Shown piece by piece: positions 14,207 to 24,486 of a stretch of DNA of 24,486 bases. A program made the position numbers and the translations under genes. The stretch comes from a virus. The notes beneath the pieces are model-generated. The model was not told where the DNA came from and made no database searches. It was given only the letters and a program-made list of their open reading frames with translations. How positions within the stretch are numbered: the stretch's first letter is position 1; each line of letters starts with the position of its first letter. The stretch lies in the IMG/VR virus record IMGVR_UViG_3300031964_000086, positions 1 to 24,486 of that record; one strand, written 5' to 3'.

Positions 14207-14680
14207 CTAGATGGTGTTAGCGCACTGGATTTGGATTACGGACGTGGCCACACGGCCTAGGTGGTCGGGGTCCCAAGTGACTTCCGTCTGATCAGTCAGC
14301 GGAACGGCAACGGTCACGCTGTCGCCGAGACTGGGATCACTGCGGACGACTGCAACCACCGCATCGACAAGGGACTGAGCGCGCGTGTACACGCCTTGCG
14401 CGTCGTCGCCGCCCCGGTACACGTCGACCGTGATTTCTACGGTGTAGCTCTCGTCTAGCCACCCCGGACCGCCACCACCAACCAGACGCTTTGCCTTGAC
14501 CGTGCGGTGAACGGCACCGACCGACACAATGTCTTCGGGCTGATCCGGCCCCGGTTCGTCGTAGACGACAATCAGGCGCGCATCGGGATTGGACGGGTCG
14601 GGGGTGATCTGCGCGGATAGCTGAGTGAAGAGCCAGAGACGCGCGGCAGGGGCGGAAGACGTGGGAATGACAAGAGTCAC
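14207..14680 (-). CDS. Tail terminator/completion protein (gpU-like), 157 aa
   Basis: The protein follows the connector gene with a 1-nt overlap (TAGTG), so the GTG at 14678-14680 is chosen over the longer frame. Features of the tail-terminator family include a helix near the N-terminus (SAPAARLWLFTQLSAQI), a beta-rich core (ARLIVVYDEPGPDQPEDIVSVG) and TVEITVDVYRGG followed by helix TRAQSLVDAVVAVVRSD and a final strand segment (ATSVIQIQC). In HK97-like and lambda-like phages the terminator caps the tube and joins it to the neck. The gene order connector, this gene, small protein, major tail fits. Exact family assignment needs profile comparison. Confidence 0.68.
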   Translation of the reverse strand: MTLVIPTSSAPAARLWLFTQLSAQITPDPSNPDARLIVVYDEPGPDQPEDIVSVGAVHRTVKAKRLVGGGGPGWLDESYTVEITVDVYRGGDDAQGVYTRAQSLVDAVVAVVRSDPSLGDSVTVAVPLTDQTEVTWDPDHLGRVATSVIQIQCANTI

Positions 14681-15570
14681 TAGGCGATTCCGGGAGGTCG
14701 ACGGAACGGGGACCACAGTTCAATGACACGGTCCGGCAGGGCGAATCCCATCGGTGCGCCCGCAACGTCTCCGTCTTGTGCTGAGGAACCGAATCGAGGT
14801 CGGCCGCTCTGCTGCGTCTGCTGCCAGAGGTGGCGAATCAGTTCCAGCGCTCCGAGACGAACCGTGTACGGGATCACGCCCGCTCGCCCCGCCGTGTACG
14901 TGAGTTTGATGTTCTTCGAGCCAGCGGCGAACAGTGCGGCTTCGCCGCCGAAAGTGCGTCGGGTGATCTGACCCGTGGTGTAGTCGGCCGTGAAGGCGAA
15001 CGCGTTCATTTGCGCGCCGAGTTGCTGTTCCGTCAGCAGGAACGCCGACAGCCCGTAGTACTCGGTACAGCTCAGAATCGATGCCAGCGGAACCCAATCG
15101 GGGAAAATCCAGGAAGCGCCACCGTCGAACCACTCGGTATGCACTTCCGGCAGCAACGGGCCGACCACGTCGCGCGCCTGATCGGCGGCAGTGAGAATGA
15201 AGTTCTGTAGCTCATCGTCCGAGCGGGTATCGGCCAGATTGATGTTCAGGTGCTTTTTCACGCTGACTAGGTCGACGATCTGTTCTACGCCGACCGGGCG
15301 AACGGTGAACTGATCCGCGTATGTCCAGCGGACGTTAGTACCGACAGCCGACCACGCGACCAGCCATACCCCGAGGGTCGTCGCCGACGAAGCGATAGCG
15401 GTATAGACACCAGCACCAGCACTCACAGTGGCCGGCGTGGTCGCATTCCCGAGCGGGTCAGTCACGGTCACCGTGACTGTCATGGATTCCGTCGCCGGAT
15501 TCCCGCTGTCGTCGAGCACGGTCGCCGACAGGGGCACGTCTTGCCCAGCGAAGTACATAACCTGAGTCAA
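14680..15570 (-). CDS. Head-tail connector fused to an N-terminal Ig-like domain, 296 aa
   Basis: The 296-aa product seems to have two domains. Residues 1-95 are a beta-sandwich with invasin/Ig-like features (FAGQDVPLSATVLDDSGNPA, TVTVTVTDPLGN, AGVYTAIASS, GVWLVAWSAVG). Residues about 96-296 form a helical gp6-like head-tail connector (VDLVSVKKHLNINLADTRSDDELQNFILTAADQARDVVG, then WFDGG, PLASILSCTEY, and VRLGALELIRHLWQQTQQ). Connectors of this type form a ring below the portal. The Ig-like domain could face outward at the neck, as other phage Ig-like domains do. The gene starts at TTG with GAAGGGGG about 6 nt upstream, 12 nt after the His-rich gene. Confidence 0.72.
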   Translation of the reverse strand: MTQVMYFAGQDVPLSATVLDDSGNPATESMTVTVTVTDPLGNATTPATVSAGAGVYTAIASSATTLGVWLVAWSAVGTNVRWTYADQFTVRPVGVEQIVDLVSVKKHLNINLADTRSDDELQNFILTAADQARDVVGPLLPEVHTEWFDGGASWIFPDWVPLASILSCTEYYGLSAFLLTEQQLGAQMNAFAFTADYTTGQITRRTFGGEAALFAAGSKNIKLTYTAGRAGVIPYTVRLGALELIRHLWQQTQQSGRPRFGSSAQDGDVAGAPMGFALPDRVIELWSPFRRPPGIA

Positions 15571-15582
15571 GACATGCCCCCT

Positions 15583-16002
15583 TCAGTGCCAACGGTGGCG
15601 GTGCCTGATGTGCTCTCGCCGGTGCTTGTGGTGTTCGTGCCGGTGCTTGTGATGCTCTCGGCGCTTGTGACGCGCATGGTGCTTCCGATGCGCGTGCAAC
15701 TGGCGATGCGCGCGCTTATGGCGCTTGCGCCGCTCATGGTGGCGCTTCCGGTGCAGCCCCTTGCGCTCATGGCGCTTGTGGTGCAGGTGCGTCCGGTGCT
15801 TGTCTTTGTGGTGCTTGCGGTGCTTGAACTTCCGGTGATGTTCTTTCCGGTGCATGTGCCGCAAGTGGTGCAGGTGGTGCGTGCCCTTCGTGCGCTTGCG
15901 CGGCTTGCGGGGCTTGTGACTACGCGTCGACTTCCGCGTGTGTACGCGGTGATGCTTTATGTGGACGCGCCGAACGTGTCGACGCCAGTGCTCTAGGGAC
16001 AC
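15583..16002 (-). CDS. His/Arg/Lys-rich polycationic protein after the capsid gene, 139 aa
   Basis: This 139-aa product contains 44 His, 34 Arg and 21 Lys (about 71% together), with fewer than ten acidic residues. It opens MSLEHWRRHV and is otherwise an irregular chain of HRK, KHH and HKR units. The start GTG has a strong ribosome site (GGGGGAGG) 5 nt upstream, and its stop is 12 nt before the connector gene. It fills exactly the slot between capsid and connector where decoration or head-accessory proteins are often encoded. A DNA-condensing, internal head or metal-binding role would suit the composition, but no homologue is recalled and the role is inferred. Reading the opposite strand gives a Val/Leu-rich ORF with no support. 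Confidence 0.75.
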   Translation of the reverse strand: MSLEHWRRHVRRVHIKHHRVHTRKSTRSHKPRKPRKRTKGTHHLHHLRHMHRKEHHRKFKHRKHHKDKHRTHLHHKRHERKGLHRKRHHERRKRHKRAHRQLHAHRKHHARHKRREHHKHRHEHHKHRREHIRHRHRWH

Positions 16003-16016
16003 AGACCCTCCCCCGA

Positions 16017-16048
16017 AGGGGCACCTACTAAAGTTAGTAGGTGCCCCT
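16017..16048. repeat. Palindrome copy 4, arms extended with AGGGG/CCCCT
   Basis: The core is at 16022-16043 with an AG centre. The outer arms AGGGG and CCCCT pair perfectly, giving 32 nt. It lies 8 nt beyond the capsid stop codon and about 14 nt before the start of the His-rich gene, whose ribosome site begins right after the right-hand arm on the minus strand. Confidence 0.92.
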
Positions 16049-16056
16049 CGTTGTCC

Positions 16057-17400
16057 TTAGAAGGTGGGGGCAACCAGACCGGTGCCGCTGACCACGGAAA
16101 TGGACTGCGGGTATCGACCGGGCTGGAAGGAGGCGTAATTGTAGAGCCGGACGTAAACTGACATGTTCTGCGCGTACGTCTGCTGGAAAGCCTCAGCCCG
16201 AATGTCGGACTCCCAGAGCATCAGGTCAGCCATGCGAGCAACCAGGACAACATCCTGATTGGTGCCGGTACCGAGGTTCGTCGGAAGGCTCGCGTCGACA
16301 TAGACGGGAAGCCCCAGCATCGAACCCACAAAGCCCTGAGACGCATTCGCCGACAGGTTGCCGACAGCGTTCATCGGACCGCCGGCCGCAGGGACAACCA
16401 GCGGACGACCCTGCGTGTCCTGCTGCGCGATTGCCCACGCCCAACGGCGCGGGTGCATGATGATTGCGTCCGGGGGCAGGAATCGGCTGGTGTGGATCGC
16501 CTGAATGGCACCCGCAAGCTTCGAGTACAGAGCCGCAAGCGTCGGCGAAGCGCTGGTGAAAGCGAGCGCGTTCGTACCGGCCAGGGTCGTGATACCGGTC
16601 AGCGTGCCACCGGTACCGGCACCCTGGATCACCTGAGTGTCGAGCTGAACGGCATAGGCCGCCGCGAGATCGGCGAGCACGACAGAGTCAATGTTCAGCG
16701 GACTCTGTTCGAGAAGCTGAAGCGAAACGGTCTGGCCACCCGCGATGGTCACGACCGGACTAGAAACGCTGGTCGTGGTGAGATCCTGTTCGAGGACTCC
16801 GCCGTTCTGCGCTGTCTGCGGAGCAACCTGCGTACCGGTATTGATCTTCGGGATGTTGATCGAGTCGGTTCCGGCCGGAAGCTCCATGGTGGGGCACAGG
16901 TTCGCCACGACTCGACCGGGGCGCGCGAAGGCGATGAAGTCCTGTTCGAGCCACAGGGGCGGAACGAACTCGCCACCGCCGCCATTGGCGGTCGACAGCG
17001 CCGCACGCTTCTCGTCCTGAGCCGCGCGAATGCGGTCGTTGCGAATCAGTCGGTCGAGCGCGTCACGGTCACCCTTGTTTCGGGCAAGGTGAAGGTCTCG
17101 GAAGTACGACCGCCCGTCGTTGGCCTTCCGATACACCTCAGGCTCACTGGTGACCTGAACGGACGGCGCATAGCGCTTCCGCATCTCTTCGGAAGCCTCA
17201 TCCATCCGAAGCTGAGCATCGAGTTCGGAAATGCGGTCGTCGAGCGCGCGAATCTCGGACTCGTCAGTGTCGAAGCGGCTCGACTCATCGTCGGTAAGGC
17301 CGCGCGACTCCGACTGAGCTACCTTCAGCACCTCGTCGATAGCGGAGCGCATCGCAGCGCGCTTGGAAATGAGATCAGCAATAAGCTCACGCTTGGTCAA
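16057..17400 (-). CDS. Major capsid protein, HK97 fold, 447 aa
   Basis: This 447-aa protein follows the prohead protease, the standard HK97-type order. Residues about 1-90 are a charged coiled coil (RELIADLISKRAAMRSAIDEV..., ESEIRALDDRISELDAQLRM), the delta-like scaffolding domain expected to be removed by the protease. The body then shows HK97 signatures: GGGGEFVPPLWLEQDFIAFARPGRVV, SINIPKIN, VTIAGGQTVSLQLLEQS, ADLAAAYAVQLDTQVIQGAGTGG, DAIIMHPRRWAW, and a late DLMLWESDIRAEAF strand. Many copies build the icosahedral shell. It starts at TTG with AAGGAAC upstream. The stop is followed by a palindrome hairpin before the next gene, which could lower expression of the downstream genes relative to this abundant protein. 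Confidence 0.95.
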   Translation of the reverse strand: MTKRELIADLISKRAAMRSAIDEVLKVAQSESRGLTDDESSRFDTDESEIRALDDRISELDAQLRMDEASEEMRKRYAPSVQVTSEPEVYRKANDGRSYFRDLHLARNKGDRDALDRLIRNDRIRAAQDEKRAALSTANGGGGEFVPPLWLEQDFIAFARPGRVVANLCPTMELPAGTDSINIPKINTGTQVAPQTAQNGGVLEQDLTTTSVSSPVVTIAGGQTVSLQLLEQSPLNIDSVVLADLAAAYAVQLDTQVIQGAGTGGTLTGITTLAGTNALAFTSASPTLAALYSKLAGAIQAIHTSRFLPPDAIIMHPRRWAWAIAQQDTQGRPLVVPAAGGPMNAVGNLSANASQGFVGSMLGLPVYVDASLPTNLGTGTNQDVVLVARMADLMLWESDIRAEAFQQTYAQNMSVYVRLYNYASFQPGRYPQSISVVSGTGLVAPTF

Positions 17401-17409
17401 AAAGGTTCC

Positions 17410-18159
17410 TTACGAATGGCGGGGAGAGATGTCCAGTGCGCGAAGACGGGCGCAATACAGGGACAGGTCCGGAACGGACAGCGACTCAATCGCCGGGGCA
17501 GGCTCGGGAAGACCGCCGAGCGCCCCCAGAAGGGCGAAAATCGCATCTAGCTTGTCCGGGGTCAGCTCGACCCCAGAGCGGAGCGCACGGAGCGCGTCAG
17601 CGGCTTCACGAGACCGAAGGGAAGCGCCGGCCGTGTGAGGGTTCGCGCCGTAGTTCACGGCGCTTACGTCACCCTTGTGCATGTCGACTTCGGTAATGTC
17701 GCGCTGACTCCAGTCAGGCGACCACGACTGACCAGTGACCCGAAAGCCAAAACTCATTTCGTCGAGGTCGCCGCGATCCATGGCGATCTGAAGGTCACGC
17801 ACGGCCGACTGAGCGGGGTTCAGGTCGGCTTCGACATGAAGGCCGCGCTCATCCTCAGCGAGCCGCATAGTGCCGCTTTTGGTCCTGGCCAGCGTCAAGC
17901 CCTCATGGTTCAGCTTGAACGGCACGTCAGCCCCGTTCGCCAGGGTCTTAGCGAAAGCCCCCCGGCGCACTACCTCGGAGTAGTCGCCGAGATAGTCACT
18001 CATGGTGTAGGGGGTCTCAGTCACGGACGCATAGCCGGTGAACCTGAGAAGATTCCCCCCTGAGCCGTCCGGATGCTCACGTATCTGAGCGTCATCGAAC
18101 GGACGATTACGTGTTTCAACAGCACCACCATTGGTGGCGCGTATGGAAAGGTCGGTCAC
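17410..18159 (-). CDS. Prohead protease, HK97 family (S78/U35), 249 aa
   Basis: This serine protease is related to HK97 gp4. Family features are FTGYASVTETPYTMSDYLGDYSEVVRRGAFAKTL (residues 40-73), the catalytic H85 in KLNHEGLTLART, S136 in DEMSFGFR, and an EVDMHKGDVSAVNYGANP segment carrying the last catalytic acidic residue. It processes the N-terminal delta domain of the capsid protein during head maturation. The N-terminal 35 residues and the C-terminal 70 (after GASLRSREA) are variable and may be self-cleaved. The GTG start overlaps the portal stop by 1 nt (TAGTG), so the two are translationally coupled. The capsid gene begins 9 nt downstream. Confidence 0.92.
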   Translation of the reverse strand: MTDLSIRATNGGAVETRNRPFDDAQIREHPDGSGGNLLRFTGYASVTETPYTMSDYLGDYSEVVRRGAFAKTLANGADVPFKLNHEGLTLARTKSGTMRLAEDERGLHVEADLNPAQSAVRDLQIAMDRGDLDEMSFGFRVTGQSWSPDWSQRDITEVDMHKGDVSAVNYGANPHTAGASLRSREAADALRALRSGVELTPDKLDAIFALLGALGGLPEPAPAIESLSVPDLSLYCARLRALDISPRHS

Positions 18160-19403
18160 TAAAGCACAGCCCCCATTGCATCGGCCTTCATTGGCGAAGG
18201 CGAAGCCCCCGTGTCCTTAATGGGCGCGACGTTGCTATTCAGCGGGGCCGCGATGTTGTCGCCACCCTCGACCGGGGCGAAGTTTTCCAAAGCCCGGATT
18301 TCGTTCTGAGTGAGGATTCCGGCGGACCGGGCAGCGCCGTAGACGAGATAGCGGCCGGCCGTATCGGTGCGCAGAAGTGCGTCAGCATTGAAGCGCGCGC
18401 ACTGCGGTTTCGGCATGAGCGATGACCACGCATCTTCGAAGCGACCGAGCCACGGATTCAAGGTGTACGCCAAAAATCCGAGCCCCTGCTGTTCGATGCC
18501 GGTGCCCCAGCTCGTAGTTTTGTCGGTCTGTCCGAGCATGTGCGGCGGAATCCCGAACAACATCGCTAGGTCGATGGTCTGCGCGGCGCGCGTGCCCAAA
18601 AACTGGGCATCCTCAGGCGTGACCGATATCGGTCGCCAGGATGCACCACCAGAAAGCACACCTACCGTGTGGGCATGGCTGAGTCCGCCATGCGAAGCCG
18701 TGAACGACTCTTTGAGCTGTCGGGCTCGCTCTCGGTCGAGGTCGCCGGGCACCTCGACAATGCCGCTCATGTGAGCGCCATTGCCGAAAAAGCGGGCTCC
18801 GAATTCCTCGGCGGCGAGCCCCAAGCCGATGGCGTTCCGCGCGTACCGAATGACGCTGATACCGGTAGCGGCTTCCGGGTAGGCAAGCCCCAGGATATGA
18901 ACGATGTCGTCAGCGTCAACCGGCTTCCGGTTGACTTCGTAGACCCGTTGCCCATTCCCGTCGAGCGTGCACTTCACGCGGTCGGGATGAAGCACCATCA
19001 GCCGGTTTGGATACCCTCGGGAGTCCCGAGACAGCACCAGGCAATACGCGTTCCCTCGCAGCAACAGCGAGACCATCATCTGAGAGAGCCCGAGACGCCT
19101 CGACGGAAGCGACGTGTTAGCCGCACCCCCGAACGGGTCGGAGATGATCCCCGGCGGGGGCTCAAGAGTCCGGCGAATCTCTCCCTGCATCCGGACCGCA
19201 TCGAAAGGGAGTCCGGCGACAGCATCAGACAGGATGCGCACAGCGGAAGCGACTACGAGTAGTTGCATTGCCGTGTCTTCGGTGACCGGGACGCCGGCGG
19301 ACGTGATTGCCGCAAGGCTGCCGTTCGTGGGAATCGCCCACGGGTCACCCGCCCCACTCGGAACAAAGGCTCTGCGCTCAGCGGCGCGACGGGTAAAACT
19401 AAT
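18159..19403 (-). CDS. Portal protein, HK97 family, probable ATT start, 414 aa
   Basis: The portal ring gates DNA packaging. Family signatures include AVRILSDAVAGLPF, RLGLSQMMVSLLLRGNAYCLVLSRDSRGYPNRLMVLHPDRV, GTRAAQTIDLAMLFGIPPHMLGQTD and FEDAWSSLMPK. The first in-frame ATG (19266-19268) would remove conserved N-terminal sequence (APVTEDTA-type, here GVPVTEDTAMQLLVVASAV). Between the upstream in-frame TGA (19410-19412) and that ATG there is no ATG, GTG or TTG. The best start is ATT at 19401-19403, overlapping the stop of the small membrane-protein gene as ATTAG and giving SFTRRAAERRAF at the N-terminus. Alternatives are a start at the ATG or a frameshift from the preceding gene. Confidence 0.85.
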   Translation of the reverse strand: MSFTRRAAERRAFVPSGAGDPWAIPTNGSLAAITSAGVPVTEDTAMQLLVVASAVRILSDAVAGLPFDAVRMQGEIRRTLEPPPGIISDPFGGAANTSLPSRRLGLSQMMVSLLLRGNAYCLVLSRDSRGYPNRLMVLHPDRVKCTLDGNGQRVYEVNRKPVDADDIVHILGLAYPEAATGISVIRYARNAIGLGLAAEEFGARFFGNGAHMSGIVEVPGDLDRERARQLKESFTASHGGLSHAHTVGVLSGGASWRPISVTPEDAQFLGTRAAQTIDLAMLFGIPPHMLGQTDKTTSWGTGIEQQGLGFLAYTLNPWLGRFEDAWSSLMPKPQCARFNADALLRTDTAGRYLVYGAARSAGILTQNEIRALENFAPVEGGDNIAAPLNSNVAPIKDTGASPSPMKADAMGAVL

Positions 19404-19602: not shown

Positions 19603-21114
19603 CTATAGGTCGTCCCAGCGCCAGAATTGGGGCTCAGGGTCACGCTCGGGTTCGACGCACGCACGCTCAAGCGCCATGACCGCCGAAACGGCCAAGTCGA
19701 TTTTTCGAGGACTGCCCTTCGAGTCCTTCGAGAGTCGAGAGCCGCGCGAATCCGTGCGGATCACACAGTTGGCAAGGTGGCGCGCTAGGCGCGGGTTGCC
19801 GGAATGCGTGATGGTGCGGTTCATTACCGCTTCAAAAAACCTGGTCGTCGCTGGGATCATGCGCGCGGGAGACTGGGGAAACTCCACGATCGGCAAACCC
19901 TCGTCTTCGAGGATTTGATACGTCCGAGCCCAGCGGTAGGGGTCGCAAACTACTTCCCGAACCGTCCAGCGTCGACAAGCCGCGCGAATCTCGGCTTCGA
20001 CGTCCACAATCGGCACAGACCAGTCTTGACCCGTGTTCTGAGGGCGTTCCCACGCTGCGACGACGTCGACATGTGGTAGCCGTCCATCGGTCGGGCACTC
20101 GACGACGACAAGCGCCGTGCTGTCGTTATTGAATGAGCCATCAAAGCCAAGGACAACGTCCGCACCATCCGCAATCTCTCGCGTGGTATCTACGCACGCG
20201 TCCCATGTGCCGGCGGGCAACCACGCCTGAGCGGCGCTCACCCACTGGTTAAGCCGCTTCGTCCGAAACTCGGCTTCCGGCGTGCGCAACACGGCCGACT
20301 CGAAGTCGTCCGCAGAGACGATGTCGCCGAAACCGGGGTTGGCCTCAGCCCAAACGGCACGATCCCGGTGGTCGGCGTTCTCAGGCGCTCCCCACCATTC
20401 GAAGTAGAACGCCGGGTCGTCGACTTCACCGCTGGCAACCTGACACCCGTACTGGTACATGCCGTAGCAAAGGCTGTCGCCGCCGGAACTGTCGCTCTTG
20501 ACGCCAGCAGTAGTGATGCCGACAATCAGCGGCTCGACACGCGCACCGGTAGCGAGCGCCATCACGTCCCACAGTTCGCGGGTTGGCTGCGCGTGCACCT
20601 CGTCGAAGAGAACGAGGTGAGGGTTCAGCCCCTCCTTCGTGAAGGCTTCAGCGGACAGAACGCGATAGACGGAGCCGGTCGCCGGGAACTCGATTGCGTC
20701 CCGGTAGAGTCGGAAACGACCGTTGAAAAACGGCTCAAGCTCGATCATCTTCTTCGCGACGCCGAAAACGATTCTTGCCTGCTCTTTATCGGCAGCACAC
20801 GAGAAGACCTCGCCACCCTTCGGCCCGAAGGCGAGCCCATAAAGCCCGATTCCGGCCCCGAGCGCGCTCTTGCCGTTCTTTCTCGGCTCGCCGATAAGTG
20901 CCTGTCGATGCCTCAGGCGGCCATCAGCACGCCGAGCCAGAAGGCGACTAATCATGTCCGTCTGCCAATGGCGCATAACCATCGGCTCGCCAGCGGAACC
21001 GCCGACACTGTCTTTCGTCACGCGAAGGAATTCCGTAAACGCGCCGAAATGATCGCCATCACCCCGTGCGATGTCCTCCGGAGCGACCTTCGTAAGCCAA
21101 AGGGGGCCACTCAA
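19603..21114 (-). CDS. terL: Terminase large subunit, 503 aa
   Basis: The DNA-packaging motor has an N-terminal ATPase and a C-terminal nuclease. Walker A is GEPRKNGKS (residues 75-83), Walker B is LVLFDE (167-172), and the coupling motif is TTAG (201-204). In the nuclease domain D325 (GFDGS) and D391 (CDPYR) are visible, and KIDLAVSAVMAL near the C-terminus carries the third acidic residue. The length is normal. It cuts concatemeric DNA and pumps it through the portal. It starts at TTG behind AGGGGTAG, 3 nt after the small-subunit stop. The HK97/phiC31-like type and two nearby HNH genes suggest cos-type cohesive ends. Confidence 0.95.
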   Translation of the reverse strand: MSGPLWLTKVAPEDIARGDGDHFGAFTEFLRVTKDSVGGSAGEPMVMRHWQTDMISRLLARRADGRLRHRQALIGEPRKNGKSALGAGIGLYGLAFGPKGGEVFSCAADKEQARIVFGVAKKMIELEPFFNGRFRLYRDAIEFPATGSVYRVLSAEAFTKEGLNPHLVLFDEVHAQPTRELWDVMALATGARVEPLIVGITTAGVKSDSSGGDSLCYGMYQYGCQVASGEVDDPAFYFEWWGAPENADHRDRAVWAEANPGFGDIVSADDFESAVLRTPEAEFRTKRLNQWVSAAQAWLPAGTWDACVDTTREIADGADVVLGFDGSFNNDSTALVVVECPTDGRLPHVDVVAAWERPQNTGQDWSVPIVDVEAEIRAACRRWTVREVVCDPYRWARTYQILEDEGLPIVEFPQSPARMIPATTRFFEAVMNRTITHSGNPRLARHLANCVIRTDSRGSRLSKDSKGSPRKIDLAVSAVMALERACVEPERDPEPQFWRWDDL

Positions 21115-23808: not shown

Positions 23809-24486
23809 TCATGTTCCCACCGGCACCGAGTCAGCTTCGACGATGACCGCCGTTGCTTCGGTGTCGACATCGTCGGGCACTGGTCGCCAGTGCAACCGAG
23901 TGCGGTCGGCAATTGCGAGGATCTTCTGTTTGCCGTCTTCGCCCTTAACTCGACCCTCGACGAACGAGACCCCTTCGAGGAACAGCCCCAGGAACTCACG
24001 TCGCTTGAACACGTCCCAGCTTGCCCACGGCGTTCCGGGGGCTGTCGGGTCGATGCCGGGCGCGAACCAGTCGGCAGGGATGCGAACGCTGTCGTCTACC
24101 TTCGCGTCGAGTTCAGCGAGTCGTGTCGTGCACTGCTCTTCCCAGTCTTGGTACTTATCCATGGTCTCGTTCCATGCTGCTGCACCACTGGGCCCCTGCC
24201 ACGCCCGCGCGCTGCGCTCTGCACGGTGCCGGTCGATGGATTCGCGTACGTGGTCGAGGTGAGCCTTCGTCTCCGTTCGCTCATCCTCGACCCCGGACAG
24301 GTCGCGCTGTTCGGCGAAGCGGGTTGCGGCAGCGATCAACCATGCGCGGTCGGTTGGGTCGCTCATATCTGCGGCGGCAATCTTCGACCAGACTCGCCGG
24401 GCGACGTAGTTATCTGCCTGCCCAATCTGCACAGCAAGCCCACCATGACCAACGGGGTTCGCGCACAGGTAGTACGGCTTAGCCTG
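23809..24486 (-). CDS. int: Large serine integrase, C-terminal part (5' end outside the window)
   Basis: The frame is open to the window edge, so only the C-terminal 225 residues are present. It begins QAKPYYLCANPVGHGGLAV, the end of the zinc-ribbon/recombinase region. A long helical segment follows (ARRVWSKIAAADMSDP...TETKAHLDHVRESIDRHRAERS...EEQCTTRLAELDAKVDDSV), fitting the coiled-coil domain used for synapsis. The conserved tail is WDVFKRREFLGLFLEGVSFVEGRVKGEDGKQK. Large serine integrases join phage attP to host attB. The catalytic serine lies upstream and is not visible. It is followed after 4 nt by the 118-aa gene and then a terminator. The identification depends on the domain pattern. 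Confidence 0.88.
   Translation of the reverse strand, partial: QAKPYYLCANPVGHGGLAVQIGQADNYVARRVWSKIAAADMSDPTDRAWLIAAATRFAEQRDLSGVEDERTETKAHLDHVRESIDRHRAERSARAWQGPSGAAAWNETMDKYQDWEEQCTTRLAELDAKVDDSVRIPADWFAPGIDPTAPGTPWASWDVFKRREFLGLFLEGVSFVEGRVKGEDGKQKILAIADRTRLHWRPVPDDVDTEATAVIVEADSVPVGT

Follow-up and report, generated by a model that had tools for sequence, protein, structure and literature searches.

Gene organization of the head module

The window, meaning the whole 24.5-kb virus record that was analysed (24,486 nucleotides), carries a set of phage head genes on its minus strand. The large terminase (19603–21114), portal protein (18159–19268) and capsid maturation protease (17410–18159) genes were assigned from position and synteny; for the protease, the order was as in annotated relatives and tblastn aligned it to a syntenic prophage. 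The major capsid protein of HK97 type (16057–17400) was recognized by the PF05065 (E=8.5e-20) and phrog_2263 'major head protein' (E=6.8e-65) profiles, and the head-tail adaptor (14680–15570) by phrog_442 (E=3e-16). At its N terminus the adaptor is extended by ~80 residues, which is unusual among head-tail adaptors; the extension matches the Ig-like domains Invasin_D3 and MG2 weakly, below the Pfam cut-offs.

Between the capsid and adaptor genes lies an open reading frame (15583–16002, minus strand) that starts with GTG and encodes 139 residues. As originally predicted, these include 44 His, 34 Arg and 21 Lys, together about 71% of the protein. The strong ribosome-binding site was also verified from the sequence as GGGGGAGGG (16006–16014, minus strand), with the GTG start 3 nt further on. 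Exact packing between neighbours held on the downstream side only, where 12 nt separate the basic gene from the adaptor start; upstream, 54 nt lie between the capsid stop and the gene. This longer spacer contains a perfect 15-nt inverted repeat with a 2-nt loop (16017–16048). On the minus strand the repeat lacks a trailing T run, and it is possibly an attenuator or an mRNA stabiliser. In several relatives, the capsid-to-gene spacing is too short for a 15-nt inverted repeat.

Coding status of the open reading frame

Complete copies of the same ORF were found in IMG/VR contigs 3300029951_000076 and 3300030739_000101 (one residue different), and a further copy in IMG/VR 3300030520_000533 was interrupted by the contig end. 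Because the ORF recurs in these further assemblies, it is not an assembly error. Its composition is also beyond what reading in a wrong frame produced: off-frame readings of high-GC genes at several of the examined loci reached 50–56% H+R+K over 50 residues, whereas the window ORF peaked at 80% over the same length.

Pairwise comparison of the homologues revealed dN/dS values of 0.12–0.63 in the gene's frame for pairs with enough differences, and most changes fell at third codon positions. The third-position GC of the basic gene ranged from 0.68 to 0.98 and tracked that of the capsid gene. The gene's frame alone was free of stops in every member; each other frame was broken in some member, and the antisense frame was interrupted in most. 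A plus-strand ORF (15541–15996) does overlie the gene, and we regard it as a by-product since on the opposite strand the codons CAC, AAG and CGC become codons for Val, Leu and Ala. Related phages with stops in the gene's frame had been named beforehand as a ground for giving up the proposal; the homologues were intact, and the related phages without the gene lacked all of it and held no broken copies.

The idea that the ORF is no gene, but low-complexity DNA read off-frame or in antisense, might draw on the 50–56% seen in high-GC genes and on the nearly open plus-strand frame; it is hardly credible in view of the purifying selection in the basic-protein frame, the single frame left uninterrupted in all members, the end sequences conserved among homologues and a third-position GC resembling that of the capsid gene. 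Taken together, the sequence comparisons indicate that the His/Arg/Lys-rich ORF is a genuine gene maintained by selection.

A family of basic proteins in the capsid–adaptor slot

The capsid protein and the adaptor were used as anchors to read the slot between them across viral loci, and carriers were traced through viral contigs by an adaptor-anchored search and a DNA scan with the core motif. Similar proteins near capsid genes elsewhere, which the original prediction had named as something to look for, were indeed found: about 18 distinct sequences had a related ORF, rich in His, Arg and Lys, in the capsid–adaptor slot. The carriers were the window phage, loci L005, L007, L008, L009, L012, L021, L022/L024/L033, L023, L025, L026, L028, L050, L051, L052–L054, L060 and L086, and a prophage in G405. 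G405 is a bacterial genome that belongs to the order of a Streptomyces genome, and the gene order of its prophage matches the window from the small terminase to the tape measure.

The family members range from 43 to 71% H/R/K and differ considerably in length. The short form in L022/L024/L033 has 75 residues, the G405 prophage protein has 177 residues (42 H, 40 R and 14 K) and the L028 protein has 202 residues, of which 81 are His. Nearly all members contain 0–2 Asp/Glu residues, the window protein being exceptional with 8. Many members share an N-terminal stretch resembling LRRHLRRVRSQ, and many have a core like KAAHRHTLRAHRKH and an RRYR-like C-terminal end, with some lacking one or the other. 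We found no fixed His motif or Cys-rich motif conserved across the family. In the AlphaFold model, a helix at the N terminus is accompanied by a long one at the C terminus (mean pLDDT 77, pTM 0.40); for so biased a sequence, the model carries little weight.

The statement that no characterized phage head protein is known with this composition agreed with the searches made. Searches of the 17 members against Pfam, PHROG and NCBIfam profiles gave no match of weight, and a PDB profile search revealed no relative of the basic protein. In particular, the known protamine-like and core protein families gave no match of weight for the 17 members in Pfam, NCBIfam, PHROG or PDB; no HU or Lsr2 profile, representing bacterial nucleoid proteins, was matched in Pfam, NCBIfam or PHROG; no known decoration or minor capsid family was matched with weight in PHROG or Pfam; and the T4 IP families gave no PHROG match of weight. 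A tblastn search with three members and a DNA search with one member against annotated phages returned nothing, and these BLAST negatives are weak because of the low-complexity mask; proteins of this kind tend to escape standard searches, whose low-complexity filters mask them. A degenerate core-motif DNA scan of viral contigs recovered seven family loci together with L120 and L126, which lie in unrelated loci, look like chance matches and were rejected as members. Searching the literature for phage head proteins that are histidine-rich or protamine-like revealed no precedent, only a eukaryotic-virus analogue. On the evidence of these comparisons, the basic proteins are a real family that is not filed in the libraries searched.

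Position and distribution of the basic gene

In every homologue measured, the basic gene directly preceded the adaptor gene with a gap of 11–24 nt, and the adaptor was the constant downstream neighbour across all homologous loci. The description of the protein as capsid-adjacent is accurate for the window; in many relatives, however, one or two small genes stand between the capsid gene and the basic gene, encoding a decoration-like protein and an NPINYAxGL-type protein. In phages without the basic gene, the slot holds only those two, another small gene or nothing. The slot is also variable more generally: at L006, L008, L017, L028, L032, L049, L068, L101 and L115, it behaves as an accessory slot, and decoration-like, NPINYAxGL, ~190-aa, ~107-aa and basic proteins occur in any mix, or not at all.

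The carriers clustered in a tree built from 73 adaptors, and the presence label needed at most seven changes. This count treated L030 and L055 as non-carriers; both are cut pieces of the L033 and L012 contigs, which carry the gene, so that fewer than seven changes are needed. The basic gene was absent throughout a sister group on this tree (42 rows). Contigs of about 39.5–41.4 kb were found both with and without the gene, and we therefore rejected the idea that it allows longer genomes. Many close relatives whose contigs are equally long lack the gene, which also indicates that it is not needed to pack the genome. Judging from this distribution, the basic gene is dispensable across the phage group. 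We also considered whether the capsid N-terminal region is more acidic in carriers, as for recruitment of the protein; the comparison did not support this (mean net charge -4.7 versus -4.0, p=0.10).

Conservation of fixed charge and variation of histidine

The number of Arg and Lys residues was between 39 and 60 in 16 of the 17 sequences, the exception being the short form with 25. Over these 16 sequences, the number of His residues varied five-fold (16–81); the short form had 7. Replacements within the H/R/K set accounted for 34–47% of the changes at H/R/K residues in diverged pairs, compared with 18–20% expected from one-step mutation, although the alignment may inflate the observed share somewhat. 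In the near-gapless pairs L008/L009 and L050/L051, these swaps made up about 40%. The share of Lys dropped with rising third-position GC (rho -0.66) while the total basic share was unchanged. Judging from these sequence patterns, selection seems to maintain some 50 fixed positive charges per molecule while the number of His residues changes.

Discussion

The family described here is acid-poor, rich in Arg and Lys and encoded with the head genes. As the protein is nearly free of acidic residues, has about 50 fixed charges and is encoded among head genes, a DNA-binding component of the head would explain it best. We consider it somewhat more likely than not that the gene is an accessory head-module gene of HK97-type actinophages, whose product is an acid-poor polycation that binds nucleic acid and likely neutralises packaged DNA. 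By analogy, the protein would most likely bind packaged phage DNA as protamines do in sperm, and our best guess from the gene context is that it would be located inside the virion. We infer DNA binding, virion presence and genome condensation by the basic protein. The more specific proposal, that this is an undescribed family of phage His/Arg/Lys polycations packaged with the DNA and condensing or tethering it in the heads of HK97-type actinophages, is put forward more tentatively and stands at somewhat below even chances.

In the proposed mechanism, the basic protein would be made late, together with the capsid and the adaptor, and would enter the prohead or join the incoming DNA. Roughly 50 fixed Arg/Lys charges per molecule would then neutralise and tether the phosphates of the packaged DNA. 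The histidines would be mostly uncharged spacers, able to hydrogen-bond DNA and to gain charge if the pH falls. Charge and His hydrogen bonds both let His/Lys polymers bind nucleic acid, as seen with siRNA (PMC7465012). Such synthetic histidine-lysine carriers resemble the phage protein as mixed His and Lys polymers that bind nucleic acid; they are designed peptides and not a gene family, and serve as a physical model only.

Among natural proteins, one close likeness is to the protamine-like proteins of eukaryotic dsDNA viruses, namely baculovirus P6.9, adenovirus core VII and mu, and the ascovirus P64 family, which are likewise small, extremely basic and acid-poor. They too are encoded by dsDNA viruses, and genome condensation by the phage protein would follow by this analogy. 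In contrast, their hosts are eukaryotic, while the phage protein belongs to a bacterial host and to packaging by a terminase motor, and the phage protein had no sequence match to any Pfam family or PDB chain. P6.9 is also Arg/Ser-rich rather than His-rich. Viral protamine-like proteins (PMC6163548) offer a eukaryotic-virus analogue for a DNA-binding role in the head.

Other accessory proteins of phage heads were compared as well. The T4 internal head proteins (IPI, IPII and IPIII) are non-essential and produced along with a tailed-phage head, and the basic protein is accessory in the same way; we found no sequence relation to them, and its composition is much more extreme. The T4 proteins are targeted by an N-terminal sequence that the prohead protease cleaves. 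The T4 proteins are packaged, and IPI is injected (PMC9958956). The HK97-type decoration and minor capsid proteins of actinophages, such as those of Patience, Rosebush and Myrna, are outer-shell accessory proteins (PMC7150772). They resemble the basic protein in being accessory head proteins of actinophages, and small accessory genes share its slot. Unlike these outer-shell proteins, the basic protein is a polycation without a match to a globular profile.

The T4 comparison raises a different possibility, in which the basic protein is injected and acts in the host, coating entering or replicating phage DNA, for example against nucleases or restriction, or displacing host nucleoid proteins; T4 IPI is a case of such protection of DNA. 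Patchy presence and fast drift would fit accessory counter-defence, and the T4 internal proteins are non-essential, with injected IPI inhibiting a restriction enzyme (PMC9958956). We consider this role unlikely, as the near-pure polycation shows no sign of a specific enzyme-inhibiting fold.

The constant position of the gene would also fit another role, that of a DNA plug at the neck, where a few copies at the portal–adaptor junction would hold the last-packaged DNA end until ejection. The gene does lie directly upstream of the adaptor gene by 11–24 nt even when it is separated from the capsid gene. Gene adjacency is weak evidence, however, and relatives whose adaptor belongs to the same family lack the gene. 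We also know of no plug protein with such a His/Arg/Lys composition, and a neck plug is quite improbable.

A role centred on histidine, as a pH switch or a metal binder, had been suggested in the original prediction, with release of condensed DNA on a pH shift. The His content across homologues (9–40%) and the predicted net charge of the window protein, which rises from about +48 at pH 7.5 to +69 at pH 6 and +88 at pH 5, are in its favour. It is nevertheless weakened by the five-fold range of His in the family while the Arg and Lys number is held, and by the absence of any fixed His or Cys-rich motif kept across the family; we regard it as distinctly unlikely. Since Arg and Lys are held while His varies, the sequences speak more for a head polycation that binds DNA constitutively than for a protein that switches with pH or binds metal; effects of pH or metal, if any, would be secondary.

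The proposal of a new protamine-like or metal-binding class of head protein thus survives in its first half, as a head-module polycation without a known family, and loses force in its second. A protamine-like role is the best guess for a real and unusual polycation gene of this kind. The weight now lies on fixed charge instead of histidine, and on the adaptor gene instead of the capsid gene; as read from the sequences, the original proposal is partly supported.

In the usual description of tailed phages, DNA is packed by motor force and counter-ions with few or no condensing proteins. If the constitutive polycation proposed here is correct, it would represent a protamine-like system among tailed phages, whose packaged DNA is generally regarded as essentially naked. 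Carriers and close relatives of equal contig size offer a natural way to compare whether a condensing protein alters DNA pressure, ejection or particle stability. The basic protein is also a compact natural His/Arg/Lys candidate for nucleic-acid binding, with a possible use in delivery.

With regard to the phages themselves, we found no isolated phage carrying the basic gene. The window capsid protein matched only Mycobacterium phages among the annotated phages (about 41–44% identity), and in the two Mycobacterium phages examined, the small gene after the capsid gene was not basic-rich. The L028 adaptor had no match in the annotated phage collection. With this adaptor unmatched and the capsid matching only Mycobacterium phages, the phage group seemingly has no isolated member in that collection. 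A product encoded at 23809–24432 of the window looks, on visual inspection, like the C-terminal portion of a large serine recombinase; this would be consistent with a temperate phage.
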